Assembly (NCBI RefSeq): GCF_004000605.1
Contig: NZ_CP018911.1
Location: forward strand, 2,523,001-2,587,000
Length of the DNA stretch: 64,000 nucleotides
Reading direction: 5' to 3'
Source of the DNA: Glycocaulis alkaliphilus
Lineage (GTDB): Bacteria > Pseudomonadota > Alphaproteobacteria > Caulobacterales > Maricaulaceae
Shown here: positions 3,248 through 56,571 of the stretch, piece after piece
Layout: the number at the start of each line of letters is the position of its first letter
How positions within the stretch are numbered: position 1 is the stretch's first letter
Translations under genes and position numbers: made by a program
The notes under the pieces: model-generated
The model's database searches: none
Told to the model about the DNA's origin: nothing
Seen by the model: only the letters and a program-made list of their open reading frames with translations

Positions 3248-4249
3248 TCAGACCCGCGGCTGGTTGCACGTCACACAATGAAAGGACCCGCCGCCAGACA
3301 GGATATGCGAAGACGGGCTGGCCGCAAGAGTGTGCAACGCAAAGTAAGGTTTCAAAACCTCTAACGCCGCATCGGCGTGCGTGTTAAACGATGGAACTAC
3401 AACGGTTTTCGGCGAAATCACCCAGTTCATGTGAGAGGCGGCCTTTGGCTCGCCCTCCTCGTCCACAACCCGCCCCGGCGAGGGAATGCGCACCACTTTC
3501 AGCTTGCGCCCCTTCGCATCGGCTGCGCTTTCCAGCTGCCGGGCGATGGCATCAAAGATTTTTGCATTGGGGTCATCGCTGCCGCTGGCGCTCTGGCAGG
3601 CGACGATGCCGGGCGCGATGAAGCGGGCGATATTGTCGACATGACCGTCTGTATGATCGCCAATGAGGCCTTCATCGAGCCAGATGACGGTGCTGATCCC
3701 CAGCGCCTCTTTGAGGCGGTCCTCCACCTGCGCTTCGCCAAGACCCGGATTGCGGTTAGCGTTCAGCAGGCACTGGCGCGTGGTGAGAAGCGTGCCCTCG
3801 CCATCAAACTCCAGCGCGCCGCCCTCGCACACCAGATCGATCTCTTTCAGCGTGGCTCCCGCCAGCGCGGCGACGGCAAGACCGATCTGCTGGTCGCCAT
3901 CGAGCTCATACTTGCCGCCCCAGCCATTGAAGCGGAAACGCACTGCCTTCAGCTGGCCGTTCGACACCGCGAACACTGGCCCGGTATCACGCACCCAGAC
4001 ATCGCCGTAAGGATTGCGCACCACCTCGACGGTCTGCCCCAGACGGGCGCGGACATCGCGGGCCGTTTCCTCATTGGCCGCATGCACGGCGACGGCCTGG
4101 CCGCCGCGCACCAGATGGCTGACAAAGCTGGCAAATTCGGCGCGGGCGGGGGCGAGGTTTTCCTCCCACAGATCGCCGTCCGCGGGCCAGCAGGTGTGGA
4201 TCACGCTCTGCGGCACGGTCTCGTGGGGGATGTGAAGATTGGCGGTCAT
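3248..4249 (-). CDS. aguA: Agmatine deiminase
   Basis: Agmatine deiminase (porphyromonas-type peptidylarginine deiminase family) converts agmatine to N-carbamoylputrescine and ammonia. Visible family motifs include WVRDTGPVF, GWGGKYEL, LTTRQCLLNANRNP, GDHTDGHVDNIARF and the C-terminal GGGSFHCVTCNQPR, which carries the catalytic cysteine. I chose the ATG at 4249, which gives MTANLHIPHE and 333 residues. The frame stays open to a GTG at 4300, but those 17 extra residues are not like the family. It is the first gene of the minus-strand operon containing the serine hydrolase, aguB and GNAT genes, so the two-step agmatine-to-putrescine route is complete here. Confidence 0.92.
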   Translation of the reverse strand: MTANLHIPHETVPQSVIHTCWPADGDLWEENLAPARAEFASFVSHLVRGGQAVAVHAANEETARDVRARLGQTVEVVRNPYGDVWVRDTGPVFAVSNGQLKAVRFRFNGWGGKYELDGDQQIGLAVAALAGATLKEIDLVCEGGALEFDGEGTLLTTRQCLLNANRNPGLGEAQVEDRLKEALGISTVIWLDEGLIGDHTDGHVDNIARFIAPGIVACQSASGSDDPNAKIFDAIARQLESAADAKGRKLKVVRIPSPGRVVDEEGEPKAASHMNWVISPKTVVVPSFNTHADAALEVLKPYFALHTLAASPSSHILSGGGSFHCVTCNQPRV

Positions 4250-4337
4250 GAGTGGCCCGGACAGCTGGCGGTGAAAGGCTTTGCCATACCATGCCTGCAC
4301 AGGCGTAGCGATGGGGTTAAGCGGGGGACCTCTTACT

Positions 4338-4429
4338 GAAACCCCGGAAGCGCAAAGCGCTATCCGGGGCCTCTCTCCGCTTCATCCTGCCACAGGTCCC
4401 GGATGGCCCTGCGGGCCTCCGGGATTTCA
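4338..4429 (+). repeat. Two-hairpin intergenic repeat, copy A
   Basis: The first hairpin has outer arms CCCCGGA/TCCGGGG and an inner AGCGC/GCGCT stem. A CCTCTCTCCGCTTCATCCTG linker follows, then a second hairpin with arms CCCGGA/TCCGGG around GGCCC/GGGCC. The copy sits between the agmatine deiminase start and the terminator of the Oar-like receptor. Five more copies occur in this window. Confidence 0.8.
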
Positions 4430-4446
4430 ACGATGTTTCAAAAGAA

Positions 4447-4472
4447 AAGGGCGGCTCAAAAGAGCCGCCCTT
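4447..4472 (-). terminator. Rho-independent terminator of the Oar-like receptor
   Basis: A perfect 11-bp stem (AAGGGCGGCTC with GAGCCGCCCTT) and a 4-nt loop. Read on the minus strand it is followed by a T-rich tract. It starts 31 bases after the receptor stop codon. Confidence 0.85.
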
Positions 4473-4503
4473 CCCAGTCTCAAAGCCCGTAGAGGCGTGG
4501 CTA

Positions 4504-7500
4504 CTAGAACTCGTAGCGCAGGCCCAGACGGATTTTGTAGAGAGAGTTACCAACACTCTCAACACCGGTCGTCTGGTTCGGGTTGAAGCTGTTGTAACGG
4601 TATTGGCAAGCTCCGGCCGTAGCGCAGACGATCGCCGGATCAAAGTTCGCATCGTAAACGAGCGATGCCGGATTGGCGTTGCTAGGCGTAGCCGACGCAC
4701 GCGAGTTCAGGCGGCGGAAGGTCGGATCACCGGTACGAACCAGGTCAGCCGTCACAACCGGCAGGTTGCCGAAATTGCCGCCGCGGGAGTTGTAGCTGCG
4801 GCCCCATTCATTGTTGAGCAGGTTCGGGAAGTTCTCGATATCGATCACGAAGGTCGCACGATTATTCCGGAAACGCTCAACGCCGAAGGAAGCAAACGGC
4901 AGATCCTGCTGGAAGCGCAGGTTCCACAGCTGCTGCCAGGGTGCGTTGGCCGAGTTACGGTCAACGATCTGGCCACGGGTCAGACCGGCATCCGCCACGA
5001 ACTGGTTGAACACCGCCTGGTCGAAGCCGGGGGCGTAGACCACGTTCGGGTCGCTTTCCAGCGGGATGTAGAGCAGATCGGTGCTTGAAGGCGACTGGAC
5101 CGAGTCCAGACCGAAGAGCGGGTTCAGCTGGTTCACCGAGAAGGTGTAGCTGACCGGCTGGCCCGAGCGGATATTGCCGAACACGTCAAAACGTGAGCGC
5201 AGATCACCGAAGAGCTCAGCCTCATACGACAGGTTGATGCCGAACGAGTGACGGGTTTCAAAGACCGAACGGCCTGCAGTCTGGTTGTTACGGTCAACCG
5301 ACAGCTGGTTGTGGAAGTTCGACACCGACACAGACGACGCGCCGGACGCAATCATGTCCACATCCTGGTAGGCATAGGACACATAGAAGCCCAGGCCGTT
5401 GTCGAACTCGTTCGCCAGCGAAACCGAGTAGACCCAGCTGTCGCCGTCATTGACGTTGTAAAGCTCGATGGCGTTCTGGATATTCTCGCCAGCCTGCTGG
5501 TTATAGGCAAGAATATTGGTGTAGACCGGACGGCCGTCAGGCGCGACGCCTACGGGCAGTCCACGCTCGGTCTGGGCCAGATTCCGCCAAGAATAGCCAC
5601 GGTGGATGCTGCCATAAAGCGCCTGAACCTCGATCAGATAGTCGCGGCCAAGATTGAAGCCACCGAAATCAAGGTCAAACTCGTGCTGAACGGTCACGTT
5701 GCCACGCCAGGTCGACGGGACATCGAAGCTCGGGCTGATGACATCAACCGGAGCCGGCGTGGTCAGGTCAGAAGCAGCCACCTGGTCGAGAAGGGGTTGC
5801 GGCACGTTGCGCGGGTCAACACCCGTGAACAGGCCGGACACCGAGAAGTTCTGCGGCAGGTAGTTATTGCCGAACCACACATTGGGGTCACCACCGGCGA
5901 AGAGACCGAAGCCACCTGACACGGTGGTGCGGCTCAGCGCATCCCAGCGGAAGCCGAAGCGCGGCATCAGAATGTCGAGACCGTCAAGGCTGCGGCGGTT
6001 GGCAGCGCCATAGGCCAGATCGAAATCAGGACGGTCCGGCAGGCCGAGATTGTCTTCAAAGCGCTGATAACGCAGACCGAAAGTCAGCTCCAGGTCCGGC
6101 GTCATCTGCCACTGGTCCTGAACAAAGGCTGACCAGGTGGTGTAGTCAACGAACGTGGCCGCATCGACCGCATTCCCGGACGGAGCGCTACGGAACACGA
6201 CGTTGGCAGTACCCGTCGCAATGTCGTTGACCGCGTTGGCACCCTGGAAGTTGAACTGACCACGGCCGTCCTGCAGGAAGAGGTTGTAGAAGGCGTAGTT
6301 GTTGTACTCGCCGCCGAAGCTGATGACGTGATCGCCCCAGATATAGTCACCCTGGCCATAAACAACGAGGCGTTCATCGCTGAACTCGTTGTAGGCGCGT
6401 GAACGGTCACAGCCACCCAGAATGGTGCGCGAGCCGCCGGCGGGGATGTTCACAAGGCCTTCCAGCGGCGTGCCGGCGACGTTCTCCGGCGTAAGCACGA
6501 CGCGGATCTCACCAACTTCACCACCCCGGCAGTTCTGGCCGGGATTGGCTTCCTTGTAGCCAATGCGCAGGGTCGTGGAGAAATTGCTGGTCCAGTTGGA
6601 ATACAGGTGAGCGTTGTAGGCCGTCACCTGACGCGGCGTGTCATACCAGACCGAGCTGAAATTGTTGCCGTTGCTGGTGTTGGTGTCCGTTTCCTGAACG
6701 TCCTGGTAGGACAGGGTCAGGCGGTGGTCGTCCGTGATGTTCCAGTCGATGCGCGCGAAGTAGCGCTCAGCCGTTACCGGGATGGTCGCCACGTCGGGAC
6801 GCGGGCCAACATCAACGCCAAGGCCGCTCTGGATCAGGCCGCGAAGCGCTTCGTGGAAGCCGGGCTGGTAGCCCTGACCGGCGTCAACATTGCTCGGGGC
6901 AACAGGACGGGCCGTTTCGAAGTTTTCGTAGCCCACAAAGAAGAACAGGCGGTCACGGATGATCGGGCCACCCAGCGTGAAGCCGTATTCTTCCTCGGTG
7001 AACGCGTCGGACGGGATGTAGCGGCCGAACGCGGTGTTCGACTGATAGTCATCGCCTGACCGGTAGTAGGACAGCGTACCGGAGAATTCGTTGGTACCGC
7101 CGCGGGTAACGACGTTCACCAGACCGCCGGTGAAGCCGCTCGTGAACACCGAATAATCGGTTGCCACAACGGAGACCGCCTCGACCGTGTCGAGCGAGAG
7201 CGGCGAGCGGTTGGTCGCGTAGGTAGACGTGCTAAGACCAAAATCGTCGGACTGGCTGATGCCGTCGATCACGAACGCGTTGAAGCGCGGGTTGGTACCG
7301 GCAACAGACAGGTTACCGATCGCGCCGGTGGAGTTGGCAAGCGGATCGCGCACCAGCGTGCTGATCAGGTCACGGTTGAAGGACGGCTGGTTGAGGATGT
7401 CCTGGGCGTTGAAGGACGAGCCGGCACCGTTATTGAGGCTGATCGACTGGCCGGCCGTACCGGAGACAACGATGGTCTCGACGTTCTCAATCAGGCGCAG

Positions 7501-8257: not shown

Positions 8258-9823
8258 ATGACCCTGCTGCAAGCCTCCCTCACCGATCTGACAACGCGAA
8301 GGCTGGTCCTGGCGGCGGGCCTGTTCGGCTTGCTGCTTCTGGCCGCGCGCATAACCGGGCTGATCGTCAATCCCTCCAGCCTCTATGCCGACGAGACGCA
8401 ATACTGGGTGTGGTCGCGCGATCTGGACTGGGGCTATTTCTCCAAACCGCCGCTGATCGCCTGGATCATCGCTGCCACCACCGCTGTGTTCGGTGATTCG
8501 GACTGGGCGATCCGGCTCGCCGCACCGCTGCTGCATACCGCAACCGCGCTGCTGCTGGCGCTCAGCGCTGACCGGCTGTTTGGCCGGGCCGTAGCCGCAT
8601 GGACCTTCATTGCCTGGATCACCCTGCCCTCGGTCTGGCTGTCGGCGGCGGTCATTTCCACCGATGCGGTATTGCTGACCTGCTGGGCGCTGGCGCTTTA
8701 CGGATTTGTCCGCCTGCGCGAAGGGGCGGGGTGGAGCGCTATTGTCCTGCTGGGCGCCGGGTTCGGTTTTGGCATGCTGGCAAAATACGCCATGGGCTAT
8801 TTCGCGGCCGGGCTGGCGCTGGCGGCTATTCTCGACCCGGTCTCGCGCCGCGCGCTTGTCCGGCCGCGCCTGCTGGTGGCGGGCGCACTGGCCCTGCTCA
8901 TCATGGCACCAAACCTCATCTGGAACTGGCGCAACGACTTTGCGACCGTCTCCCACACGGCGGCCAATGCCAACTGGCGCGGGGATATGTTCAATCCCGG
9001 CGAGGCCATCACCTTCCTGATTGACCAGATGGGCGTGTTTGGCCCCGCCTTCTTCGTCGCGCTGGTGGCAGCATTCATTGTGCTGGTGCGCCAGTGGCGC
9101 AAGGGCAGCGCCGACCCGCGCCTGATCATACTGGCCTGTTTCTGCGTGCCCGCCATTCTGGTCGTGACGGGGCAGGCCTTCTTGAGCCGCGCCCACGCCA
9201 ACTGGGCGGCCAGCGCCTATGCCGCCGCCACCATCATCGTCGTGGCCGTATTGCTGCAGGGTCCGCGCTGGCGGCGCTGGGTACTGATCGGCTCGGTTGC
9301 GCTGCACACACTTGTCGGCGTGAGCTTCGCCACGCTCGCCATGAGTCCGGCCCTGACCGAGCAGGTGGGCCTTGCCAACGCGTTCAAGCGCGTGCGCGGC
9401 TGGCCGGAAACCGCAACCGCCCTGGCAGAGATTGTGGAGCGCACGGGCGTCGAGACGCTCGTTTTCGATAACCGCAATGATTTCCACCAGATGCAACGCT
9501 ATGGCGGAGCCATCAATGCAGAATTTTTCATGTGGATGCGCTATGCCGGCATCACCAATCACGCCGAACAGGGCTGGGCCCTGCCTGCAGGCTATGACGG
9601 CCCGGTCCTGATCGCATCGGAGCGGCCCATGGAAGTGCCGGTCATGGCGTTCGACTTTGCAAGCCTGGAGCGCGCCGGCGATATCCGCATTGATCTGGGC
9701 GGCGGGCGCGAGCGCCACTACCAGCTCTTCATCGCAGAAGGCTACCGGCCCGTTGTCAGGACCGACCAGTTCGAGGATGCGGTCCGCCTGTCACGTCAGG
9801 CGCGCGACACGGCCCTTCAGTAA
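8258..9823 (+). CDS. GT39-family membrane glycosyltransferase (ArnT/PMT-like)
   Basis: An integral membrane protein of 521 residues with about a dozen predicted helices. Soon after the first helix it carries YADETQYWVWSRDL and GYFSKPPLIAW, the acidic DE motif and lumenal loop of GT39/ArnT-like enzymes that take a sugar from a polyprenyl-phosphate donor. A helix-rich core (to about residue 390) precedes a soluble C-terminal region. The acceptor (lipid A, protein or another glycan) cannot be told from sequence. I prefer the ATG at 8258 because the family begins just before the first helix; ATG 8219 (MTPTSL) is also possible. The gene converges with msrA and the two 3' ends overlap by 7 nt. Confidence 0.85.
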   Translation: MTLLQASLTDLTTRRLVLAAGLFGLLLLAARITGLIVNPSSLYADETQYWVWSRDLDWGYFSKPPLIAWIIAATTAVFGDSDWAIRLAAPLLHTATALLLALSADRLFGRAVAAWTFIAWITLPSVWLSAAVISTDAVLLTCWALALYGFVRLREGAGWSAIVLLGAGFGFGMLAKYAMGYFAAGLALAAILDPVSRRALVRPRLLVAGALALLIMAPNLIWNWRNDFATVSHTAANANWRGDMFNPGEAITFLIDQMGVFGPAFFVALVAAFIVLVRQWRKGSADPRLIILACFCVPAILVVTGQAFLSRAHANWAASAYAAATIIVVAVLLQGPRWRRWVLIGSVALHTLVGVSFATLAMSPALTEQVGLANAFKRVRGWPETATALAEIVERTGVETLVFDNRNDFHQMQRYGGAINAEFFMWMRYAGITNHAEQGWALPAGYDGPVLIASERPMEVPVMAFDFASLERAGDIRIDLGGGRERHYQLFIAEGYRPVVRTDQFEDAVRLSRQARDTALQ

Positions 9824-10449
9824 CCGCCCGCCTCATTGCCCCAGATTTCGCGCAGGCGCTGATCGCGCCGGCAGCCAAAGCGGTAGCGCTGATAGCGGAT
9901 CGGATTATTCGCCGCATAGTTCTGGTGATAGTCCTCCGCTGGCCAGAAGATTTCAGCCTCGCGGATACGCACCGCCAGCGGCTGGCCGAAGCGGGCCTCG
10001 ACTTCGGCGGCGCTGGCCTCGGCAGCGGCGCGCTGCGCCTCATCGAGCGTGAAAATGGCAGGCGCATAGGCCGCCCCCCGGTCGCAGAACTGCCCGCCCC
10101 CGTCGAACGGATCGACATTGCGCCAGTAGTGATGAAGCAGCGCCTCATAGCTGACGATCTGCGGGTCATAGATGATCTCGACCGCCTCGACATGGCCGGT
10201 ATTGCCATTGACCACCTGACGGTACTCGGGATTCTCCACATGCCCGCCGGTAAAACCGGAGACCACGTCGATCACGCCGTCGAGCCGCTCAAAGTCGGCC
10301 TCGGTACACCAGAAGCAGCCCGAGGCAAGAATTGCGCGGGCCTGCCCGTCCGGCAGGGCGGCGGGTTCGCCAGCCTCTTGCGCTGTCCCGGCAGAGCTGT
10401 CCGAGCAGGCCATCAGGAAGGCTGCGGCAATAAGGGCGAGGAGGCGCAT
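9817..10449 (-). CDS. msrA: Peptide-methionine (S)-S-oxide reductase, lipoprotein form
   Basis: MsrA reduces methionine-S-sulfoxide in proteins. The catalytic GCFWC motif is at residues 44-48, followed by TEADFERLDGVIDVVSGFTGG, and EVIYDP and QFCDRG regions are present. The protein starts MRLLALIAAAFLMACSDSS, a lipoprotein signal with lipobox Cys15, so it is probably anchored in the cell envelope and repairs periplasmic proteins. I chose ATG 10449 because it gives this signal peptide and has an AAGGA ribosome-binding site; the frame is open further upstream without similarity. No MsrB gene is adjacent. Confidence 0.93.
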   Translation of the reverse strand: MRLLALIAAAFLMACSDSSAGTAQEAGEPAALPDGQARAILASGCFWCTEADFERLDGVIDVVSGFTGGHVENPEYRQVVNGNTGHVEAVEIIYDPQIVSYEALLHHYWRNVDPFDGGGQFCDRGAAYAPAIFTLDEAQRAAAEASAAEVEARFGQPLAVRIREAEIFWPAEDYHQNYAANNPIRYQRYRFGCRRDQRLREIWGNEAGGY

Positions 10450-10543
10450 GGCGGTATCCTTCCGGTCAGCTGACAGTGAGTAAATGACGCAGACTGCCGT
10501 CAGGGAAAGCCCCGCACGCGAAATTGTGACACGCAAGGCGGGA

Positions 10544-11485
10544 TCAGCTGATACCGCCCAGCTCCTCCAGCCCCGCCGCCAGCGCAAGGTTCTGCACGGC
10601 CTGAACGGCGGCGCCTTTCAGGAGATTGTCGAGTGCGCAGACCAGTGTCGCATTGCGTCCGCCCTCGCCCACAGACCAGCCGCCGATCACTGCGCCCGGA
10701 ATATCCTGCCCGTCACGGATTTCGGGGATGGTGTCAGAGAGGCGGATCAGCTTTTCGCCGCCATAGGCTTCTGCATAGCGGCTTTTCAGCGCTTCCAGCG
10801 TCACCGGCGCGGCAAAGTTCAGCTGCGCGGTCAGGGTGATGCCCCGAAAGAAGGCAGCGACATGGGGTGAGAAGCGCACTTCATGGGCAAGATGACGGCT
10901 CATCTCGCGCTCATGCATGTGGCCGGTGAGGCTGTAGGGCATGAGATTGTCGCGCAGCGCCTCGAGATCGTTCTTGCGGCTGGGCGTGGTGCCTGCGCCG
11001 GAATAGCCCGACACGCCAAACAGATGCGCCGGACCGCTCAAGAGATCACGCACCGGATGCACGCAGAGCTGTCCCGCCGTGGCATAGCAGCCCGGATTGG
11101 AGATGCGCGCCGCGCCTTTCAGGCGCTCCCGGCCGTAAAGCTCCGGCAGGCCATAAGCCCAGCTGCCGTCAAAGCGGTAATCGGCCGACAGATCGACCAG
11201 GATCGTGCCCGGCGCTGCGGCTTCAATCGCCGCCACATAGGGCGCGGCTTCGCCATTGGGCAGCGCCAGTATCACCGCGTCCGCACCGCGCGCCGCGACG
11301 TCTTGCGGCCCCATGGCCTCGAAGGTCAGCCCATCGCGGGCTTCAGGCGCGAGATTGGATACCGGCTCACCCGCCATCGCCCGCGAGGAGGCAAAGACCA
11401 GCTCCATATCGCTGCGGCGCGACAGGATGGCGATGAGCTCCTTGCCGGTATGTCCGCGCGCACCCACAAGACCGACGGTCAGCAT
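10544..11485 (-). CDS. argC: N-acetyl-gamma-glutamyl-phosphate reductase
   Basis: ArgC makes N-acetylglutamate semialdehyde from N-acetylglutamyl phosphate using NADPH. The 313-residue protein has the N-terminal nucleotide-binding segment VGLVGARGHTGKEL (4-17) and the catalytic Cys133 in ISNPGCYATAG, and it has the shorter length of the type-2/short ArgC forms. It is the last gene of the argF'-argB/A-argC operon, 4 bases after the kinase/synthase stop. Confidence 0.95.
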   Translation of the reverse strand: MLTVGLVGARGHTGKELIAILSRRSDMELVFASSRAMAGEPVSNLAPEARDGLTFEAMGPQDVAARGADAVILALPNGEAAPYVAAIEAAAPGTILVDLSADYRFDGSWAYGLPELYGRERLKGAARISNPGCYATAGQLCVHPVRDLLSGPAHLFGVSGYSGAGTTPSRKNDLEALRDNLMPYSLTGHMHEREMSRHLAHEVRFSPHVAAFFRGITLTAQLNFAAPVTLEALKSRYAEAYGGEKLIRLSDTIPEIRDGQDIPGAVIGGWSVGEGGRNATLVCALDNLLKGAAVQAVQNLALAAGLEELGGIS

Positions 11486-11489
11486 GGCT

Positions 11490-12845
11490 CTAGCTCCTCA
11501 GCGTCGGCGGCAGGGCCGCGATACGCTCCACCATCGCCGGAATGCGCGACAGATTATCCTCTCCGCGCCAGAACACCGTCCAGTGGCCAGTCTTCACCGC
11601 GCCATGGCAGGTAGCGAAGTAGAACTCATTGACGGGATTATCGGTGCGCGAGCGCCAGTAAAGGCGCGGCGCATAGGCGATCAGCTTGCGCCAGACAGCC
11701 CCGCCCAGCCCCTCGCCGCGCGCATCGTCGAGCACAGCAAACTTGTCGAGATAGATGATATCATCGAGCCGCGAGGTGATGGCCGCCGCGCGGTAGCTCT
11801 CGGTCACGAATGCGCGGTCAAAGTCCAGCGCTTCGAAATACCCCTCCACCAGCTTGCGCCCGAAGGCCTGTTCGATCAGCGGGGCCGCACGCGCCGGGTC
11901 GAGATCGGCCTTGGTCATGATCTCCAGCATGCGCTCGCCCTTGCGCACCAGTGTGCCGGATCCGGCATGGGTGAACAGCTCCTTGGCGAGTTCCCCCGGA
12001 CTGGTGATCGAGACCGAGCTGGACAGTGGCAGATCATCAAGCAGACGCTTGATCTCTTCCATTTTCAGACGCATCCCGCCCGACACCCAGTCCGCGCCCA
12101 TCAGCTCGTCAAAATCGGTGGCGAGGTTGATGGCCGAGATGGCTTTTCCGGCTTCATCCAGAAGCGCGCCCGTGCCCGTCAGGAAGACGATCTTGTAGGG
12201 CTGCAGCGCGTGTACGAGCGCGCGCACGGCGGCATCGGCATTGATATTGACCATGCGCCCGTCTGCCGTATCGCCAAGACAGGCCAGGATCGGCGCCTGC
12301 CCGGCGCGCGCCGCCGCTGCAACCAGATCAAGGCGCACAGCCTTGGGATCGCCGACGCGCCCAAGCTCCGCCTCATCCATCAGCTCGGCTTCAAACACGC
12401 CTGAGGGGATGGCCGCCGCGCGCCCGCCGCAATCGCGGATCGCCTGCACCAGATCGAGATTCACGCGCGTCAGCGTATCGCGGATCACGGGGATCGCTTC
12501 GGGCGGGGTCACGCGCAGGCCCTGCTTGCGCACGGTCTCGATGCCCGCCTCGGCCAGCGCCTTGTCGAGCTGCGGACCGCCGCCATGCACCACGATGGGA
12601 GCCAGCCCCACCGTCTGCAGGAAGGCGAGCGAGGCTGACAGCGCCTCCATCTCCTCTTCCATCACCGCGCCGCCGACCTTGATGACAGCGAAACGCTCCT
12701 GATCGAGGCGCGAGAAACGGGTCAGATACTCGCGTATCTCCTTGCCGTCGCGCATCTGGGAGAGAAGCTGGACGATGGCCGAGCGTACGGGAACAGCGGC
12801 CCCGCCGCGTTCATTTGCCGAATTACCGGCTGCCTGATCGATCAC
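11490..12845 (-). CDS. argB: Bifunctional N-acetylglutamate synthase/kinase
   Basis: This 451-residue protein joins two activities of early arginine synthesis. The amino-acid-kinase domain (about 50-290) shows KVGGAVMEEEME, VVHGGGPQLDKAL and INADAAVRAL, as in acetylglutamate kinase. The C-terminal 150 residues form a GNAT-like NAT domain (FDRAFVTESYRAAAI, DDIIYLDKFAVLDDARGEGLGGAVW), as in vertebrate-like synthases. This architecture is the one characterised from Maricaulis maris (NAGS/K), where one chain both acetylates glutamate and phosphorylates the product. Its ATG overlaps the argF' stop by 4 nt, so translation is probably coupled. Arginine feedback is expected from the family but was not tested here. 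Confidence 0.93.
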   Translation of the reverse strand: MIDQAAGNSANERGGAAVPVRSAIVQLLSQMRDGKEIREYLTRFSRLDQERFAVIKVGGAVMEEEMEALSASLAFLQTVGLAPIVVHGGGPQLDKALAEAGIETVRKQGLRVTPPEAIPVIRDTLTRVNLDLVQAIRDCGGRAAAIPSGVFEAELMDEAELGRVGDPKAVRLDLVAAAARAGQAPILACLGDTADGRMVNINADAAVRALVHALQPYKIVFLTGTGALLDEAGKAISAINLATDFDELMGADWVSGGMRLKMEEIKRLLDDLPLSSSVSITSPGELAKELFTHAGSGTLVRKGERMLEIMTKADLDPARAAPLIEQAFGRKLVEGYFEALDFDRAFVTESYRAAAITSRLDDIIYLDKFAVLDDARGEGLGGAVWRKLIAYAPRLYWRSRTDNPVNEFYFATCHGAVKTGHWTVFWRGEDNLSRIPAMVERIAALPPTLRS

Positions 12846-45632: not shown

Positions 45633-48600
45633 TCACCCCTCAATCGGCAATTCGATCTCACCCATGATCCGGTGGGTTTCAAAGAGCACCTTGATGATGC
45701 GCTGATAGTGCTGGATGTCAGCAAAGGACAGCGCGCGGCCCTTGCGGTCTTTCAGCCATTTCTGCGCGGGCTGGTAGCCGCCGATATAAAAGTTCCACGC
45801 AATCTCCGGCACGCCCTCAAAGCGCTGGGCCTTGTTGATCCAGACAGAGCCCGCATCGAAGCTGGGCTTGTCCACCACGCCGTCGCCCTCGCCCATGAAG
45901 GGATAGGGCGTCTCGCCGATGGCGGCAGGCTCCATCAGGTGCAGGCGGCGAAGCTCTCCGCCCTTCTCACTTACATGCCAGAAGATATCGGGCGAAGCCG
46001 GATACGGGATGCGCGGAAAATCGATCTTCAGGAACTCGGCAAAAGTCTCGCGGTAATCCGGGCTGTGCAGCACGCCATAGATGTAATCGAAAATGGCGAT
46101 CTCGTCCGGCTCGCCATGCGCGTCGTCCCTGGCCAGTTCGCGCAGCTTGCGCCAGATTTTCGGATCGAAATTCACCCGGCGCGTCTGATCGAGGGAGCCT
46201 TCCTCCGGGTAGAGATAGAGGGGGTTGAAGACATTCACTTCCTTGATGCTCAGGGAGTGGTGCGTAATGGGCTGGTCGAACACCAACACGTCAGCAAAAT
46301 CACGACCGCCTTCGATGGTTCGCGTGAAGCTGAGCCCAAGATTTTGCTTAAATGCGTGCCGCATCACCTCATCACGCGGACGGCAGATGAAGCCGCGCGA
46401 TGTGCCGGTGTAATAGGTCCAGCGCGTATCGAAGGGGCGGTAGGCAATCGGCACGACGCGATCTTCGGAGAAATTCTGCTTCACATCGCCCTGCGCCCAG
46501 CCGACCTGCCAGTCCTGCACGTCCTTGCCGAGCTGGTATTTGGTGCGCGCCTCTTCCACCGGCAGGGCGGCAAAATCCTGCACCCGCCGCCAGAGTTCGC
46601 CTTTGTCCATATCGATGGTCAGCGCATCGCGCGCGGTGACGATGCCCACCGAATTGACCGGCATCAATTCCTGCACGCCAAAGCCTTCCAGATAGGCTTC
46701 TTCCAGCGCGTAATCGCGCCGCGTCATCACATATTGCGGGGCCTGAAGGGAAAGCGGCTCGAAATGCGTCGCCTTCACCCCCGCCTCGCGCAGCGAGTCA
46801 TACTTGCCGCTGCGCGTGCCCCACAGATCACCGTGGAGGACTTTTGCGAGCGGCTTGTCCTTGCCCGCTGCGGCCTTTTTCTTCACCGCAATGATGATCG
46901 CCACGCCCTGCTGGATATCGAACACGTTCTTGTCGGGCGAGCCGTCGGGCGAGACTTCCTTCTTCTTGGCATTGCCGTGCAAATCCAGCACGTAGATGGC
47001 GTCGAACGTGTTCAGAAGGTGCCAGCGCATACCCCGGAAGGTGGGTTATCCAGATAGCCGTGATTGGTGATGAAGCCGAGAATGCCTTCGCCATTCTTTT
47101 CAATCATGTGCTCGCCGAAGCGGATGAATTTCACATAGTCATCATTGATCCATTTCGGATTGCGCTCTTTCAGCTTCTCCTTGCCGCCCGGCTCTTTCTT
47201 GTAAGCCTCCATCAGGCCCATGATCCAATCGCCTTTATTGGCGCTTTCGCCCGAATAGGGCGGGTTGCCGATCACGCACATGATGGGCATGTCGCGCTTG
47301 ATCTTGCTGGCCTCGCGCGCCTCTTCGGCCAGCCAGCGGGCGAACAAGACCTGCTCCACCCGCTCACCCTCTTCCAGCGAGTTGGTGAGATAGACAGAGA
47401 GGCGCGGCGGCTCGCCGGAGGGCGTGTAACCCATCTCGGTCAGGATCATGTCCAGCTTCATGTGGCACATGGCGTAGCTGGCCATGAGAAGCTCGAACCC
47501 GTGAATGCGCGGGATCAGTTCGGTTTCCACATAGGAAGACCAGTGGCCGGGGGCGGACGCCTTCACCCGGTTGCCGATCTGCTTGATCACTTCGGCCAGG
47601 AACGTGCCGGTGCCGGTGGCGGGATCGAGAATCTGGACGCGGTGTACATCGCGCTTCTCGGTTATCGCCTTGCCCTTCTTGTCGGTCTGGCCGGTATCGA
47701 AATCGATCCTGATCTTCGAGGTGTCGGCAAGGCCGTCCGCCAGACCGAACTCGCTCTTCAATACCTCATCGACCGCACGCACGATGAAATTGACGACGGG
47801 CTCTGGCGTGTACCATACGCCGCGCGCCTTCCTCTTGGCCGGGTTATAGGCGGCCAGGAAGGTTTCGTAGAAATGCAGGAAGGGGTCATTCTGGCCGGTC
47901 AGCCTGCCGAAATCGGCCATGATTTCATTGAGATTGCAGGCGAGGAAAATCTTGGTCAGGTCATCGATGATCCACGCCATGCGGTCATCGAGATCCGGCC
48001 CCGCGATATAGCCGAACAGGCGGCGCAGGAAGGGATTGGATTTCGGTAAGAGCTCCAGCGCTTCCTGACGGCTGAACGTATCGAGCGTCTGGTCATGCAG
48101 ACGCGCAGCGAAGAGGCCATAGGCAATCGTCTCGGCATAGATGTCGGCAAAGTCAGCCGCCGTGATGTCGTGGATCAGATGTTCCTGAAAGGCGCGGTAT
48201 TGCGCCGTCAGGTCTGTATCGCCATTGCGCTCCAGATCGGCGACCAGCGCCCGGCCCATCACATCCTTGATCAGTACGGCTTTCGCCGCCATCAGCTCGG
48301 CAAGGCGTTTTGAGGAGGTGATGGTGCGCGGCGTCTGCGCCACGAAATCCTTCAGCTGGGCTTCCAGCTCCGCGAAGGCTTCCGGCTTTGGCTGCAATCC
48401 CATCAGCACATCGCCAATGGAGATGGAGCGGATCAGCTCAGCCTCGCGGTAGAACTCGAAATCGAGCCCGTTCGTGTAGAGAAGGTTGGGGAAGCCCTTC
48501 AGATAGCGCTGCTTCTGCTCGACGCTGTAACCCTTGAGGGCCTTTAGCTCGACGCCGACATCCTTCGCCTCGCAATGGCCCACCGGCACATCGCCGCGCA

Positions 48601-48775
48601 TGAAGATGAAGTCCGGCGCGCCGATGGCGACGCGCTTTGGCTCATTGGTGACGCTGATCCGCTCATCCAGCGCGCTGAACAGCTCATAAAGCGCCGGGCG
48701 ATAGCTGTGCTCGGTCGCCTGCCCGCCTTTGAAGGTGGCGGCGATCTTCTCGAAATATCCGGCAATCACACTCAT
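45633..48775 (-). pseudogene. Single-polypeptide restriction-modification enzyme (type IIG/ISP-like), frameshifted
   Basis: One gene now split in two frames: 47012-48775 (N-terminal part, 587 residues) and 45633-47030 (C-terminal part). The N-terminus has a PD-(D/E)xK nuclease pattern: Pro54-Asp55 in GAPDFIFMR, then Glu69-Ala-Lys71 in HCEAKDVG. A gamma-type adenine methyltransferase follows, with VWYTPEPVVNFIV, motif I DPATGTGTF (384-392) and motif IV NPPY (504-507). The C-terminal part looks like the specificity domain of type ISP enzymes; no helicase domain is seen. Near 47041-47045 a CCC run replaces the expected CCCC, so GYLDNP no longer runs into TFRGMRWHLLNTF. The start is ATG 48775. 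The cause could be mutation or a sequencing error. Confidence 0.85.
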
Positions 48776-48848
48776 GGCCCGCGCGCGTCTCCCCTGTTGC
48801 CACACGCTAGCCGTGTTGGGGCGGGAGGGGCAATCAGGAAGGATCATT

Positions 48849-51810: not shown

Positions 51811-51813
51811 GGC

Positions 51814-53001
51814 TTAATCGTAATCCGCCAATCCAGAAGCCCGCAAAAAATCTTTAAATAGGGACCGTTCGCCACCTGTCCCGGGGAGGTAGTTTCGCGA
51901 GTTTATCGCATCTCCATCAATATCTATGTTTTTAATGATTTCATAGAAAGAAGACATTTTCACGAAGTCGCCTTCATGCGACTTCAAAGCATTGTACATA
52001 GGTCTCATCAAAGACATTAAGGCGCGAAAACCATTGCTTCGCACAAGAATTTCTCCCGGTTGTGGATCATCCCATTGCCGCTGCCAATGTCTACGTACAG
52101 CCTCGAAATAATGCATGATCTGATCAGCGATCAAACCATCCTTTTCTTCAAAAAACCACCGTCTGAAAATCAACAAATCAGGGTCATATGGTCCCGCCGC
52201 GCTCCAGTGTCCCGTCGTTTTGCCAATTTCCCTATCTCGAATAATATCCTTCGTTAATAAGGGAAGGAGAGCTTGTACAACAGTAGCTTGAGTTAAAACT
52301 TCACCAAAACGCCCATCGGTAGCAACTCCAAGCCTCTTTATACGTTTATAGAACGGACTTTTCTCCGTAGAATCAAGCAGCACTGTTACTGTATGACAAC
52401 TTTTCTCCGGACTTCTGCTTTTGCTATAAGAAAGCAGGTCGTAAACAAGGCTTTTGTTTACTTTGGTCTGAGCCAAATTAACGGTCGCAAATATTCCAGC
52501 CTGATCTGCAATGTCGGCATCAACAAAAATACAAACGTTAACGTCAAATTCCTCTTTGTTTATATCGGACTCCTGAAGCCCCCGAATGCGGTGCTGGCCA
52601 TCCAAAACTCGGGCAATCCCGCGAAAAAGAACTGTGTTCGCATCCAGATGATCTCCTGGAACGTTCGTTAACGTCATCTTGTAGAACGACCCAGGGGAGT
52701 CCGACTTGCAAATCTCGTCGAGAGCAACCGTTCTTCCTTCTACAGCAAGCACTACTGCCGTCGGAAACGTAGCGTCCGGAAGTCGTACATATCGTGCAAT
52801 TTCTTCCACGCGCTTGGTGTTCACCGTTCGCTGAATACCTAAGTATTCGTCGAGATCGTCATTCCCAATTTTCTTTCGAACGTCGAACCAAGAAATATCA
52901 ATCAGCTCTTTCGCGCTCATTTTTCCGATGAAAAAGTCGCCAATTGGCTGACTGACCTTCATCACATCGAACGAAACGGATCGCGGACTCTCATTAATCA
53001 T
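51814..53001 (-). CDS. DGQHR-domain protein (DndB-like)
   Basis: A 395-residue protein with the DGQHR signature at 134-138 (RVLDGQHRIRGL). It also has an upstream QRTVNTKRVEEIARYV segment and a downstream IFATVNLAQTKVNKSLVYDLL segment, both typical of this family. DGQHR proteins include DndB, the regulator of DNA phosphorothioation operons, and relatives in other DNA-modification clusters; the fold is related to ParB-like nucleotide-binding domains. ATG 53001 overlaps the membrane-protein stop by 8 nt, so it is the third gene of the MT-A70 unit. It is clearly more AT-rich than uvrB, which supports transfer. No dnd genes are present. Confidence 0.85.
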   Translation of the reverse strand: MINESPRSVSFDVMKVSQPIGDFFIGKMSAKELIDISWFDVRKKIGNDDLDEYLGIQRTVNTKRVEEIARYVRLPDATFPTAVVLAVEGRTVALDEICKSDSPGSFYKMTLTNVPGDHLDANTVLFRGIARVLDGQHRIRGLQESDINKEEFDVNVCIFVDADIADQAGIFATVNLAQTKVNKSLVYDLLSYSKSRSPEKSCHTVTVLLDSTEKSPFYKRIKRLGVATDGRFGEVLTQATVVQALLPLLTKDIIRDREIGKTTGHWSAAGPYDPDLLIFRRWFFEEKDGLIADQIMHYFEAVRRHWQRQWDDPQPGEILVRSNGFRALMSLMRPMYNALKSHEGDFVKMSSFYEIIKNIDIDGDAINSRNYLPGTGGERSLFKDFLRASGLADYD

Positions 53002-53515
53002 AACCAACACCCACGACCGCAGCTTCGGCATTCACCTGATCGCGATTAACTTGATCGGGACTCGGAGGTGGCTGCTCTGAAAGAACTTTAACTCTATAAT
53101 ATATAAAAAAGGCACCGATAAATAGCAAAACACTAACTACGCTATGTAAAATAGTAAATGACGTCTCCAAATTCGGTATCAAAGCAATAAATGGCTTTTG
53201 TGCTATATACATGGCTAGCATAGCTATGCATGTCAGAACGAACACAAGCGACCATGCCCGCACCCAAGTGAGATTATTATGAGATTTCAGCTGTATTGTA
53301 ATAAAAACAGATGCAGAAACTGAAGTTGCATAAAAATACAAATCTCCAGATAGAAATACTTCTATAATTAAATATCGCCAACTCTCTAGAATAAGAGATG
53401 CCATATAACCTAAGATCAGCGGAACCAACGAAAAAACGGCCAGAATGATAACTTCACGTCGTGCATCTTTTTTGCCAGACCTAGAGGCATGTTCAATTGA
53501 AAAACTATCAAACAC
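52994..53515 (-). CDS. Four-helix membrane protein of the MT-A70 unit
   Basis: A 173-residue protein with a short basic N-terminus (SRSGKKDARREV) and hydrophobic segments at about 22-43, 49-74, 86-105 and 118-141. A hydrophilic Pro/Gln/Asn-rich tail of about 30 residues follows. It has no signal peptide and no catalytic motif I recognise. It starts 5 bases after the methyltransferase stop and overlaps the DGQHR gene by 8 nt. A small multi-helix protein in such a unit could be a membrane effector as in several defence systems; this is inference from context only. The gene is strongly AT-rich. Confidence 0.75.
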   Translation of the reverse strand: MFDSFSIEHASRSGKKDARREVIILAVFSLVPLILGYMASLILESWRYLIIEVFLSGDLYFYATSVSASVFITIQLKSHNNLTWVRAWSLVFVLTCIAMLAMYIAQKPFIALIPNLETSFTILHSVVSVLLFIGAFFIYYRVKVLSEQPPPSPDQVNRDQVNAEAAVVGVGYD

Positions 53516-53520
53516 TGCAT

Positions 53521-54144
53521 CTACCTTTTTTCACGAGCGAGCTCCGATTGAGAACTCGAATTATACGTATAGGTACGCCAGTCCGGAGCGTAAGCGCCAT
53601 CCGCTTGATTGCCCCAATTGTGCCAGCCTAGGCGAGTCCCTCGCGAAAACAATTCCAATCTCGGCCCCGGTGAGCATGCTTCGATAATGTCGTATTGCTC
53701 AACGGGCTTCCGCGAGTGCTCCATTTTTCGCGTCGAGATGATATTCACTTGGCTCCGTGCAGGAGCAAGTGTTCGCGGGTTCGGGCCGCGCACGCCAAAT
53801 AGAAGCAACTCAGTAACGTTGCGGAAGTAGAAACCTACGCCGCGTCCATCTGGGCCGCCGTCCTTTCGGATCTTCTGCCAGACAAGGTTGCTCTTATATG
53901 TGAAGCCCCACGCCTGCATGAGCGTCAGGCCATCTGGAAGAAGAGCATTCGGAACCCAGAGATATAGGTGGGCTGTGTCGGCGGCGTAGTCAGTGACAGG
54001 CATTGCGCAGAGTTCTTCCAACGACATCGTTGGATACCGTGTAAGTTTACGATTTTCCGGAGCTATTTTCCCCGTGCGGTTTTTAAAGCGCCAAGGGGGG
54101 TCAGCGAGAATGGTTCCAAATCGCTTGTCGGCAAAATCCAGCAT
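53521..54144 (-). CDS. MT-A70-family adenine-N6 methyltransferase
   Basis: A 207-residue methyltransferase. The catalytic DPPW is at 15-18 (FGTILADPPWRFKNR), with HLYLWVPNALLPDGL, FTYKSNLVWQKIR and the SAM-side PGPRLELFSRGTRLGWHNWGNQ. This is the MT-A70/Ime4-like group, found in phages and mobile elements, that methylates adenine N6 in DNA or RNA. ATG 54144 has GGGAG 8 nt upstream and starts just before strand 1; the frame continues upstream to 54291 into the lipoprotein gene without similarity. It is the first gene of the three-gene accessory unit. No nuclease gene is adjacent. Confidence 0.9.
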   Translation of the reverse strand: MLDFADKRFGTILADPPWRFKNRTGKIAPENRKLTRYPTMSLEELCAMPVTDYAADTAHLYLWVPNALLPDGLTLMQAWGFTYKSNLVWQKIRKDGGPDGRGVGFYFRNVTELLLFGVRGPNPRTLAPARSQVNIISTRKMEHSRKPVEQYDIIEACSPGPRLELFSRGTRLGWHNWGNQADGAYAPDWRTYTYNSSSQSELAREKR

Positions 54145-54199
54145 CTGAAACGCTCCCGGTGACTTGCACCGAACCGAATCCGTTTCGGTTGCTGGACCG

Positions 54200-54733
54200 T
54201 TAAGATCCCACCCTGCGATAAATCCCGTCAATGCGCACGTCGCCGTCCAGGATTTCCAGATAGGTTCGTATGACCTGTTCGAGCTGGTCAAGCGTTTCTA
54301 TCGAGCAGAAGCCTTCCGGGTCGCGAATGATGCCGGCGGCGGCGAGCTGTTCGGCCGTCAGGATATGGCAATCGGGCTGGTGATAGGTGGTCATGTCCGC
54401 ATAGACGAAGAGCACGCCATAGGTGATGGCGTCCTGGCGGGGGACTTGCGCGATATAGATATCGCCCGACAGGCGGCGCAGCCTGGCATTCTGGTGCGGG
54501 AAGTTCGGCGCATCCGAGCTATAGCGGCGCGAGAAGAAGCCGTAATCGATACGACCCTGCCACGTGACCCCGCCCCATTCCACGCCCTCTGTATCAAACG
54601 GCGTATGGGTGTATTCGCCCGGCGGCATGGCGCGCCTGGCATCGCGCGCGCCGATCAGCTCCTCCTCGCTGGTAAAGCACCCGGCGAGCAGGAGCGCGGG
54701 CGCGAGCAGGAGGAGCTGGGCGAGCCTCCTCAT
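54200..54733 (-). CDS. Hypothetical lipoprotein
   Basis: A 177-residue lipoprotein (MRRLAQLLLLAPALLLAGC, lipobox Cys19). The mature part contains GEYTHTPFDTEGVEWGGVTWQGRIDYGFF and a central YIAQVPRQDAITYGVLFVYADM strand region, then two conserved-looking cysteines (DCHIL, GFCSIE). I do not recognise the family. Its start overlaps the aminopeptidase P stop by 4 nt, so the two are coupled. It marks the right border of the accessory unit, 55 bases from the methyltransferase start. Confidence 0.75.
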   Translation of the reverse strand: MRRLAQLLLLAPALLLAGCFTSEEELIGARDARRAMPPGEYTHTPFDTEGVEWGGVTWQGRIDYGFFSRRYSSDAPNFPHQNARLRRLSGDIYIAQVPRQDAITYGVLFVYADMTTYHQPDCHILTAEQLAAAGIIRDPEGFCSIETLDQLEQVIRTYLEILDGDVRIDGIYRRVGS

Positions 54734-56571
54734 ACCGGCGCGCAGGCCGCTTTCAGCCAGGCCGCCACGTCAGCCTCCTCCGCCACCAATGGCCCGATCT
54801 TGTCCAGCACCGCCGCATGATAGGTATTGAGCCAGTCACGCTCCTCTGCGCTCATCAGGCTCACATCCACCAGGGCGGTATGGATGGGCGCGAAGGTGAG
54901 GGTTTCAAAGCCCATCATTGGCCGCTCGCCGCCGGGCAGATCCTCCGGCGGGGTGACGACCTGCAGCGTCTCGATGCGGATGCCCCACTTGCCCGTATTA
55001 TAAAAGCCCGGCTCGTTACTGAAGATCATCCCCGGTTTGAGCGCGATCGTGTTGGGCGCCTTGGCGATGCGGCCCGGCCCTTCGTGTACGGAGAGATAGC
55101 TGCCGACCCCGTGGCCGGTGCCATGGTCATAATCCATGCCCGCCATCCATAAGGGCTGGCGCGCCAGCGCATCGAGCTGGGATCCGGTGGTGCCTTCAGG
55201 GAAGCGGATGCGCGCCAGCGCGATATGGCCTTTGAGCACCAGGGTGAAGGCGCGGCGCATGTGGGTGTCCGCCTCGCCGATGGGCACGGTGCGGGTGATG
55301 TCGGTGGTACCGTCCGGGTACTGACCACCGGAGTCCACCAGATAAAGCGTGCCGCGTTCAAGCTTTCTGACCGTCTCGGTCGAAACCCGGTAGTGCGGCA
55401 GCGCGCCGTTCGGCCCCGCGCCGGAAATCGTCTCAAAGCTGATATCGCGAAATTCAGGCAGCGCCCGGCGGAAACTTTCCAGCTTCACCGCCGCGCTGAT
55501 CTCGTCTTCATTCCCGGACTGGGCGTCTGTATCCAGCCAGTGGAGGAAGCGCACCATGGCCGCGCCATCGCGGATATGGGCTGCGCGCGCGCCCTCCACC
55601 TCGACCGCATTCTTGATCGCGCGCGGCAGGGCCACCGGATCGGCGCCGCGCTTCACAATCGCGCCGGCTTTTTCAAGCTGGTTGAAGACATGGGCGCTGG
55701 TGATGGCCGGGTCCACCAGAACGGTTTTTCCGGTGAGCGCGGCGAGCGCGGAATCGAAGCTGTCTTCAGATTCGATGGATATCTTGTTGCCGTCTACAGG
55801 ATAGAGGTCAGAAACCCCTTTTTCGGGGTCGAAATACCCAGAAATCGACCCGTCCGATAGTATAATTGCCCGTCCCAGACCTATAGGGGCGCAGGCGACG
55901 TCTCCGCCGCGCAAATTGAGGATCCAGGCCACCGAAATCGGGTCTGACAGCACGGCCGCATCGGCTCCCGCCTCTTTAAGTGCCTGAGAAACCTCATCAA
56001 GTTTCGCCTCCACGCTGCGCCCGGCAAGCGTGACGGGGTGGGGATAGATCTTCGCTTTCGGGGCCGCGGGGCGATTTTCCCAGATTCTATCCACCGGGTT
56101 CTCGTCAACTATCCGCATGTGGATACCGGCGCGTGAGGCCGCTGCCTCTATCCGCGCAATGGCATCGGGGCTGTGCAGGCGGGCATCATAGCCGATTATC
56201 TCGCCTTTACGGGCGTTTGCGGCGATCCAGCCCGCGATTCCGGGCTCCGGAAAGCCCTCGAATGCGAAGAGTTGTCCATCAACCTGGTCGCGCACCTGCA
56301 GGGTATAGCGCCCGTCGGTAAAGATGGCGGCCCTATCCCGCATCACAATCGCCGCCCCGGCACTGCCCGTGAAGCCACTTACCCATGCCAGACGGTCCGC
56401 GCTGGCGGGGACATATTCGTTATTATACTCGTCCTCATGGGGCACGAGGAAGCCGTCAAGGCCGAGGCGCTCCAGCTCTTTCCTGAGCAGCGGCAAGGCT
56501 TTACGGCCATTGGCGGGGCCGCCCTTGGGGGTGAAGGTCTGGATGGTCTCGAGGGGGATAATTTGGGTCAT
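54730..56571 (-). CDS. pepP: Xaa-Pro aminopeptidase (M24 family)
   Basis: A 613-residue peptidase of the long APP1-like type with two N-terminal creatinase-like domains (from PLLRKELERLGLDGFLVPHEDEYNNEYV) and a C-terminal pita-bread domain. The five metal ligands lie in YLVDSGGQYPDGTTDITRT (two Asp), DHGTGHGVGSYLSVHEGP (His), FSNEPGFY (Glu) and IRIETLQ (Glu). It releases N-terminal residues before proline, probably in the cytoplasm. The lipoprotein gene follows with a 4-nt overlap. Confidence 0.93.
   Translation of the reverse strand: MTQIIPLETIQTFTPKGGPANGRKALPLLRKELERLGLDGFLVPHEDEYNNEYVPASADRLAWVSGFTGSAGAAIVMRDRAAIFTDGRYTLQVRDQVDGQLFAFEGFPEPGIAGWIAANARKGEIIGYDARLHSPDAIARIEAAASRAGIHMRIVDENPVDRIWENRPAAPKAKIYPHPVTLAGRSVEAKLDEVSQALKEAGADAAVLSDPISVAWILNLRGGDVACAPIGLGRAIILSDGSISGYFDPEKGVSDLYPVDGNKISIESEDSFDSALAALTGKTVLVDPAITSAHVFNQLEKAGAIVKRGADPVALPRAIKNAVEVEGARAAHIRDGAAMVRFLHWLDTDAQSGNEDEISAAVKLESFRRALPEFRDISFETISGAGPNGALPHYRVSTETVRKLERGTLYLVDSGGQYPDGTTDITRTVPIGEADTHMRRAFTLVLKGHIALARIRFPEGTTGSQLDALARQPLWMAGMDYDHGTGHGVGSYLSVHEGPGRIAKAPNTIALKPGMIFSNEPGFYNTGKWGIRIETLQVVTPPEDLPGGERPMMGFETLTFAPIHTALVDVSLMSAEERDWLNTYHAAVLDKIGPLVAEEADVAAWLKAACAPV

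Follow-up and report, generated by a model that had tools for sequence, protein, structure and literature searches.

A recurrent membrane protein–DGQHR gene pair with exchangeable adenine methylases, found beside uvrB in Glycocaulis alkaliphilus: a possible defence module

Introduction

A DNA mark that identifies self, and a ParB/Srx-type protein with a DGQQR or DGQHR motif beside the modifying enzymes, are shared by the SspABCD–SspE and IscS–DndBCDE–DndI systems as the cited passages describe them. In SspE and DndI, according to those passages, the DGQQR ParB-type domain senses DNA modification and hydrolysis of nucleoside triphosphates (NTPs) controls the attached nuclease (PMC9646914; PMC11662687). 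A three-gene unit comparable to these systems lies at positions 51814–54144 of a 64,000-nucleotide stretch of Glycocaulis alkaliphilus (NZ_CP018911.1, positions 2,523,001 to 2,587,000), referred to here as the window, and encodes an MT-A70 adenine methyltransferase, a small membrane protein and a DGQHR-domain protein. The unit differs from the SspE and DndI systems in its mark, predicted to be adenine methylation, and in having a separate membrane protein as the would-be effector. Pfam finds no HNH domain in its DGQHR protein, which is thus not a fusion of the SspE/DndI type.

A DndB-like protein binds ATP and GTP in the part of the report cited here (PMC12704722), and the cited passages of two others describe DndB as negatively regulating the dnd operon (PMC4507180; PMC10853773). 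The DGQHR half of the pair found in dnd clusters was already listed as dnd-linked in a 2011 table (PMC3226654, table only). Kiwa (KwaA–KwaB) likewise joins a membrane protein to a DNA-binding partner, and in the passage cited acts without DNA cleavage (PMC12904381). The present unit differs from Kiwa in that the partner is a DGQHR protein and a methylase belongs to the unit. KwaA is similar in size to the unit's membrane protein. The PADLOC models, which we take to include those for Kiwa, gave no Kiwa match in the window unit at E values up to 1, nor in 64 relatives of its membrane protein at 0.01, and an assignment to Kiwa was therefore rejected.

A membrane protein–DGQHR pair recurs across phyla

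The recurrence of the unit was assessed with five DGQHR queries (that of the window and those of loci L006–L009; L and G numbers denote loci and genomes), which were scanned against one genome per species. The scan matched 134 stretches, of which 96 encode relatives, and the best 80 of the 96 were kept; organism names and phyla were taken from the sequence records, many of which are metagenome bins. The 80 loci span 15 phyla, with 51 in Pseudomonadota. A gene for a small protein with two to five hydrophobic segments lies directly upstream of the DGQHR gene in all 78 loci that can be judged. Calling of open reading frames (ORFs), with at least two hydrophobic segments required, placed it in 75 of the 80; L045, L062 and L086 were added on re-inspection, and L038 and L055 cannot be judged, their contigs ending 126 and 180 bases upstream. 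Among 243 closely spaced same-strand gene pairs outside the unit, taken as background, 17 have such an upstream partner. Six-frame search located an adenine-type methylase near the pair in 65 of the 80 loci. The initial annotation would have failed had the three genes not occurred together in other genomes; they do. Because the arrangement recurs in many genomes, the layout in the window is not due to chance: the three genes form a genuine unit that recurs, with the membrane protein and the DGQHR protein as its fixed core.

The pair is also found on plasmids. A search of plasmid records with the DGQHR protein returned 24, and nine of these were inspected (L006–L014), eight of them annotated, each with a hypothetical gene directly before the DGQHR gene. 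The surroundings include BglII/BstYI-type restriction–modification (R-M) genes (L006, L007 and L009), a Dam gene (L008) and dnd genes (L011, L013 and L014); L012 has neither R-M or Dam genes nor dnd genes near the pair, and its hypothetical gene encodes 273 amino acids (aa). The same plasmid search with the membrane protein as query found nothing, and no DGQHR relatives were found by tblastn in phage records or in viral contigs.

A search of 385 genomes of the window's class found its own match and four weak partial ones. An independent draw of 398 genomes from the phylum held 13 with DGQHR-family matches at 1e-10, and only that of G729 is comparable in strength with the window's; its genes follow the order D12 methylase, membrane protein and DGQHR with tight overlaps. 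The membrane gene is present in four (L137–L140) of the 13 loci of this draw besides the window's. A different architecture was seen in L143 (G597), where a Dam-like methylase is followed by a 761-aa DGQHR-containing protein and no small membrane gene was seen. In L092 (positions 9071–12736), a 1221-aa SIR2-domain protein follows the membrane–DGQHR pair with a 4-nt overlap, and no methylase was found nearby.

The methylase is the exchangeable part

The methylases were sought with D12, MT-A70 and one N4/N6 query, and the 65 found comprise 57 D12/Dam-like, 7 MT-A70 and 1 N4/N6-type enzymes, so that D12 is the commonest form and the window carries the rarer MT-A70 form. Sixty of 66 methylase matches lie within 2.5 kb of the DGQHR gene (464 kb searched) and six further out (683 kb). 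In 43 loci the D12 gene directly precedes the membrane gene and is read in the same direction; the gene preceding D12 shares this orientation in 27 of the 43, and the gene following DGQHR does so in 20 of 41. The exact order of the window (MT-A70, membrane gene, DGQHR) also occurs in L051 and L059. In the remaining MT-A70 loci the methylase is downstream or inverted, and in L006 and L007 it is 3.7 kb upstream of the pair. Three D12 genes call for a reservation: that of L015 was displaced by the ORF caller and recovered by tblastn, its 720-nt gap being an artefact; the match in L064 is a 114-residue piece only; and the D12 gene of L016 has an HNH gene as its neighbour and could be part of a different system.

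Sequence distances were compared in the 39 of 80 loci that have an ORF-called D12 gene beside the membrane gene and near full-length genes. Those of the DGQHR and membrane proteins are correlated at 0.85 (partial 0.78, allowing for the methylase), against 0.55 for DGQHR and methylase (partial 0.16) and 0.56 for membrane protein and methylase (partial 0.22). The membrane protein is the most divergent part, with a median identity of 16.5% vs 45% and 49% for the other two. On a DGQHR tree of 93 proteins, made by a quick method (L010, whose DGQHR is spread over two short ORFs, is excluded, and L076, L084 and L087 are short), the MT-A70 label needs nine changes (gains or losses) for ten rows, eight of them forced by starred branches. 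After shuffling of the labels the average is 9.7 changes, and 129 of 500 shuffles are as low; the label is thus scattered over the tree as at random. The window protein groups with those of L015 and L016, both D12-linked; L015 comes from the window organism's own family, on the same contig as in G405. Thus, the membrane–DGQHR pair is the stable core and the methylase its exchangeable part.

The window's own MT-A70 shares about 70% identity with the MT-A70s that accompany BglII-type genes. It has relatives in 348 phage records, five of them at 60–80% identity. MT-A70s 67–71% identical to that of the window occur in Nitratiruptor and Mesorhizobium phages and in one unassigned phage record, and these phage enzymes are possibly anti-restriction marks.

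The unit in the window

The initial annotation described three minus-strand genes packed as one unit, and the ORF coordinates (Table 1) bear out its spacing exactly: a 5-nt gap from the MT-A70 stop to the membrane-protein start, an 8-nt overlap of the membrane-protein and DGQHR genes (52994–53001), and 3 nt from the end of the DGQHR gene to the uvrB stop (51810). A longer start of the DGQHR gene is possible at 53031. The annotation's family identities, MT-A70 with a DPPW motif and DndB-like DGQHR, hold in Pfam and NCBIfam. The DGQHR protein matches Pfam DndB (PF14072) at 3.5e-12 and scores 186.5 bits against TIGR03187 (cut-off 58.85), of which it is a member; the MT-A70 matches PADLOC MTase_II at 3.8e-88 and is classed by it as a type II DNA methyltransferase. 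The last two genes were also correctly noted to be more AT-rich than their surroundings (GC content 0.385 for the membrane protein and 0.45 for DGQHR vs 0.644 for uvrB and 0.629 for pepP); that of the MT-A70 gene, 0.54, is below both neighbours too and above the other two genes. A promoter and terminator scan gave no signal above that of shuffled sequence. The host genome is a single 3.02 Mb contig, in which the window DGQHR gene is the sole match of a single-protein search. The MT-A70 is the only MT-A70 match (the control of this search was silent in 14 genomes); a search for D12 methylases, whose control was positive in 4 of 14 genomes, found none.

Table 1. Features of the uvrB–pepP region, in window coordinates.
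Feature	Position	Strand	Basis or remark
uvrB, conserved left border of the variable segment	49603..51810	+	
Variable segment from uvrB to the putative lipoprotein gene, containing the unit	51811..54199		Congeners carry different cargo
DGQHR-domain protein (DndB-like, ParB/Srx-type), 395 aa	51814..53001	−	PF14072, TIGR03187
Small membrane protein, 173 aa, GTG start	52994..53515	−	Hydropathy and structure model; predicted four-helix bundle
MT-A70 adenine DNA methyltransferase, DPPW motif, 207 aa	53521..54144	−	Pfam PF05063, 9.1e-28
Putative small lipoprotein gene, right border	54200..54733	−	Lipobox read by eye; homologous end in congener intervals
pepP, next after the putative lipoprotein gene	54730–56571		

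Four transmembrane helices had been assigned to the small membrane protein. Its structure model (predicted local distance difference test score, pLDDT, 90.4) agrees, with four long helices and a C-terminal helix; the hydropathy scan alone gives three segments. By a positive-inside reading, both ends would be cytosolic. A common motif, G-[E/D/Q]-L..Y, marks the start of the second transmembrane segment (G57–Y62). Pfam has no match to the window protein above cut-off, and in the 64 relatives no Pfam family was matched by more than three at an E value of 0.1; PADLOC gave one weak match among the same 64. Profile matches in the PDB are weak only, to designed or unrelated membrane proteins, and Foldseek found no significant fold match.

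In the DGQHR protein, residues R58, D134–G135, H137–R138, F171 and N175 are invariant in 57 relatives and Q57 and Q136 nearly so, the motif itself occupying residues 134–138. The model has a pLDDT of 89.2. Foldseek returned no significant match; the best probability among the 50 matches listed is that of the ParB-like PadC, 0.69 (E 0.69), which agrees with the ParB/Srx link of DGQHR domains given in the cited part of PMC4619093. A sequence-profile search of the PDB with this protein gave no match. The DGQHR protein is predicted to be an NTP-dependent reader of DNA modification, and the MT-A70 is the predicted self-marking enzyme.

Related pairs in phosphorothioate clusters

Related pairs also lie within phosphorothioate (dnd) clusters (L010, L011, L013, L014, L139 and L140). 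The dnd-type DGQHR proteins of L011, L013, L014, L138, L139 and L140 form a clade with a support of 100, and the window protein falls outside it. Five of its six members are in dnd clusters, three by annotation (L011, L013 and L014) and two by tblastn (L139 and L140); around L138, tblastn found no dnd genes within 14 kb. In the unannotated E. coli plasmid record L010, the pair lies between DptH- and DndD-like genes, and a search of 5,426 E. coli genomes matched this pair in 123, with 80% or more of it covered in 109. A profile comparison of the dnd-linked and methylase-linked membrane proteins (84% over 115 columns) is no more than suggestive, since membrane segments resemble one another. In 7 of 10 listed E. 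coli records (H25–H31), the small membrane protein of the dnd-type pair carries the RefSeq name 'accessory gene regulator B family protein', which is probably a misnomer.

The window unit shares with the dnd clusters that carry TIGR04172 (DNA phosphorothioation-associated DGQHR protein 1) the two-gene layout of a small transmembrane protein and a DGQHR protein. It differs in that its DGQHR protein is methylase-linked, stands outside the dnd clade and scores 160.4 bits against TIGR04172, below the cut-off of 450. Across the whole window, tblastn at 1e-3 matched no dnd gene with DndB, DndC, DndD and DndE of L011 and DndC and DptH of L013, queries that do match L010, L014 and L140. On the absence of dnd genes and the TIGR04172 score, the window unit was rejected as a Dnd system.

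Restriction genes and the link to GATC

DpnII- and BglII/BstYI-type R-M systems have the same or related methylases as the unit, and in some loci a nuclease lies beside the pair. BglII-type and DpnII-type queries, with the extra query R133a also BglII-type, were searched across 89 loci together with ORF clustering, in which these two are the only restriction families present in at least three loci. Besides the three parts of the unit, the largest clusters are integrase-like (by eye) and BglII-type, with seven loci each; others have at most five. BglII- or DpnII-type genes lie in 8 of the 65 methylase loci: DpnII-type (PF04556) in L080, L083, L085 and L088, and BglII-type in L051, L059, L068 and L077, with PF09195 matched in the gene of L059. 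Plasmid loci L006, L007 and L009 add BglII-type genes by annotation. BglII- and DpnII-type sites contain GATC. The closest PDB structures to the two D12 proteins tested, of L008 and L015, are DpnM and Dam. Thus, the recurring restriction companions of the unit point to GATC.

The window segment differs from these R-M systems in lacking a nuclease: 51811–54199 holds three genes only and no cognate endonuclease, so that a complete R-M system was rejected as its identity. The BglII family gave no match in the host genome, in a search whose control was also silent. More widely, 97 of the 102 genes directly beside 53 D12 units were scanned (the five left out are one spurious ORF, one D12 gene itself and one gene each of L064, L079 and L082). 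The commonest PADLOC families reach 3 of 97 (PbeA and a type IV methyl-directed enzyme, among the 25 of 111 families shown), and other defence models, type IIG and type I among them, have one gene each; in Pfam, phage integrase reaches 4 of 97, followed at 3 each by ResIII, helicases and a secretion tail domain (25 of 107 shown). No nuclease family common to these 97 genes has more than three members. Many units thus have mobile and defence genes of various kinds as neighbours, restriction genes among them, without a common nuclease family.

Location after uvrB

The interval between uvrB and pepP had been proposed as a variable insertion site, and comparison with relatives agrees: three congeners show synteny from uvrB to pepP and fill the interval with cargo of their own, namely a C5 methylase and a NotI-type nuclease (G385), a kinase and a TPR protein (G387) and a 480-aa protein without family match (G389). 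A fourth congener (G386) has an AAA ATPase after uvrB on a contig that ends before pepP, and no pepP was found in the sequence examined for a fifth (G388). In G402, of another genus, one MT-A70 gene lies between two different BglII-type nuclease genes after uvrB (L133, 1200–3493). No empty uvrB–pepP site was found among the relatives compared. A strong DGQHR match was found in two of the 41 genomes searched, the window's own and G405, with three others weak.

In two D12-linked alphaproteobacterial loci, L031 (a Rhodobiaceae bin; uvrB at 4148–6175) and L087 (Devosia; 4348–6360), uvrB lies directly upstream and ends about 0.3 kb before the D12 gene. Because these units also sit just after it, the end of uvrB may be a recurrent landing place. 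Repeats at the borders of the variable segment are short only. In L097, L098 and L103 (G389, G386 and G399), short additional copies of the 3′ end of uvrB lie about 0.8–1.4 kb downstream of the gene, as if elements integrate at this end. On the other side of uvrB, the window carries a type ISP R-M gene on the minus strand (45633–48847), split into two overlapping frames, and G385 has a close copy in the same place.

Proposed function and alternatives

We lean towards reading the unit as a modification-linked defence module that lacks a nuclease of its own and acts through its membrane partner; the role in defence, also suggested in the initial annotation, is one that we infer. By analogy, the DGQHR protein would read the modification and the membrane protein would be the effector. 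The methylase (MT-A70 here, usually D12/Dam-like) would methylate adenine in GATC-containing sites and thereby mark self DNA. The DGQHR protein, as a ParB/Srx-type NTP-binding protein, would sense, in the manner of SspE and DndI, whether DNA is modified, and the output would pass through the obligate membrane partner instead of a nuclease. The membrane protein may either damage the membrane, stopping the infected cell, or hold incoming unmodified DNA at the membrane in a Kiwa-like manner. The more specific proposal, a widespread form of restriction without a restriction enzyme, in which methylated GATC is self, the ParB-like NTPase reads it, the membrane protein is the effector, and the pair is a portable reader–effector for both N6-methyladenine and phosphorothioate marks, is a possibility that we rate just short of even.

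Several points weigh against these proposals. The five DGQHR queries of the census all came from loci with a membrane partner and a methylase nearby, which biases it towards the unit form, and nine weaker DGQHR relatives of the phylum draw (48–92 bits) have no membrane gene. No methylase was found with the three query types in 15 of the 80 loci; contig ends limit L038, L047, L055 and L057 (less than 0.5 kb upstream) and L078 (2.3 kb upstream), L054 and L089 are cut downstream, and the other eight (L036, L048, L062, L081 and L090–L093) are open for about 8 kb both ways. Restriction genes do adjoin some D12 units (at most three type IV matches, one type IIG and one type I), and there is an HNH_2 gene beside the L016 D12 gene and a weak PD-(D/E)XK match in L082. 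The ParB fold match of the DGQHR protein is weak and the membrane protein has no significant one. As for specificity, GATC-containing sites are the putative target of the window MT-A70.

Since DndB is described as a repressor, the DGQHR protein could itself be a regulator. In this reading it would, like DndB, limit expression or activity of the methylase, with the membrane protein sequestering the DGQHR protein or signalling stress to it and with no effector involved, an explanation that we consider unlikely but worth keeping in view. It would fit the presence of the pair beside complete DpnII- and BglII-type R-M systems, where an effector already exists, and the dnd cluster of L014, which shows no separate DndB in the stretch shown. 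However, the dnd clusters of L010, L011, L013 and L140 hold a DndB besides the pair, so that the post of regulator looks taken there; the membrane partner is both constant and the most divergent part; and in the many loci without a recognised nuclease, a purely regulatory pair would leave the methylase as a simple orphan. The window MT-A70 could instead be what is left of a BglII-type system that lost its endonuclease, the other two genes being passengers. MT-A70 goes with BglII-type genes in L051, L059, L068, L077, L006 and L007, and in G402 it is accompanied by two such genes after uvrB; the window MT-A70 gene is also higher in GC than the other two. We judge such erosion improbable, given that the pair is constant across many phyla and that D12 plus the pair without a BglII- or DpnII-type gene is the commonest arrangement (51 of 80; 53 with the re-inspected L045 and L086).

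The tight two-gene overlap, the divergence of the small membrane protein and the occurrence on plasmids and near integrases would also suit an addiction pair, in which a membrane toxin is held by a DGQHR antitoxin, or restrained by the methylase mark, and the unit mainly maintains itself. This would leave two adenine methylase families, GATC-type endonucleases and dnd clusters beside the pair unexplained, and it too seems improbable. The chance that three unrelated genes were inserted singly next to uvrB is negligible: the GC content of the MT-A70 gene does differ from that of the other two, but the families recur together in 15 phyla, which refutes independent insertion.

Implications

No published description of the unit was found in the literature searched, a scope that leaves out most subscription papers and all preprints. 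Modification-based immunity is usually seen as a mark combined with a nuclease, whereas dozens of genomes in 15 phyla combine a mark, a DGQHR protein and a membrane protein without a common nuclease. Should the membrane protein prove to be the effector of the modification-linked module favoured here, the recognition of self and non-self DNA would have a different output, and a function would be offered for some Dam-like methylases that appear solitary. The DNA phosphorothioation-associated DGQHR protein 1 family and its membrane partner would likewise be given a testable role.

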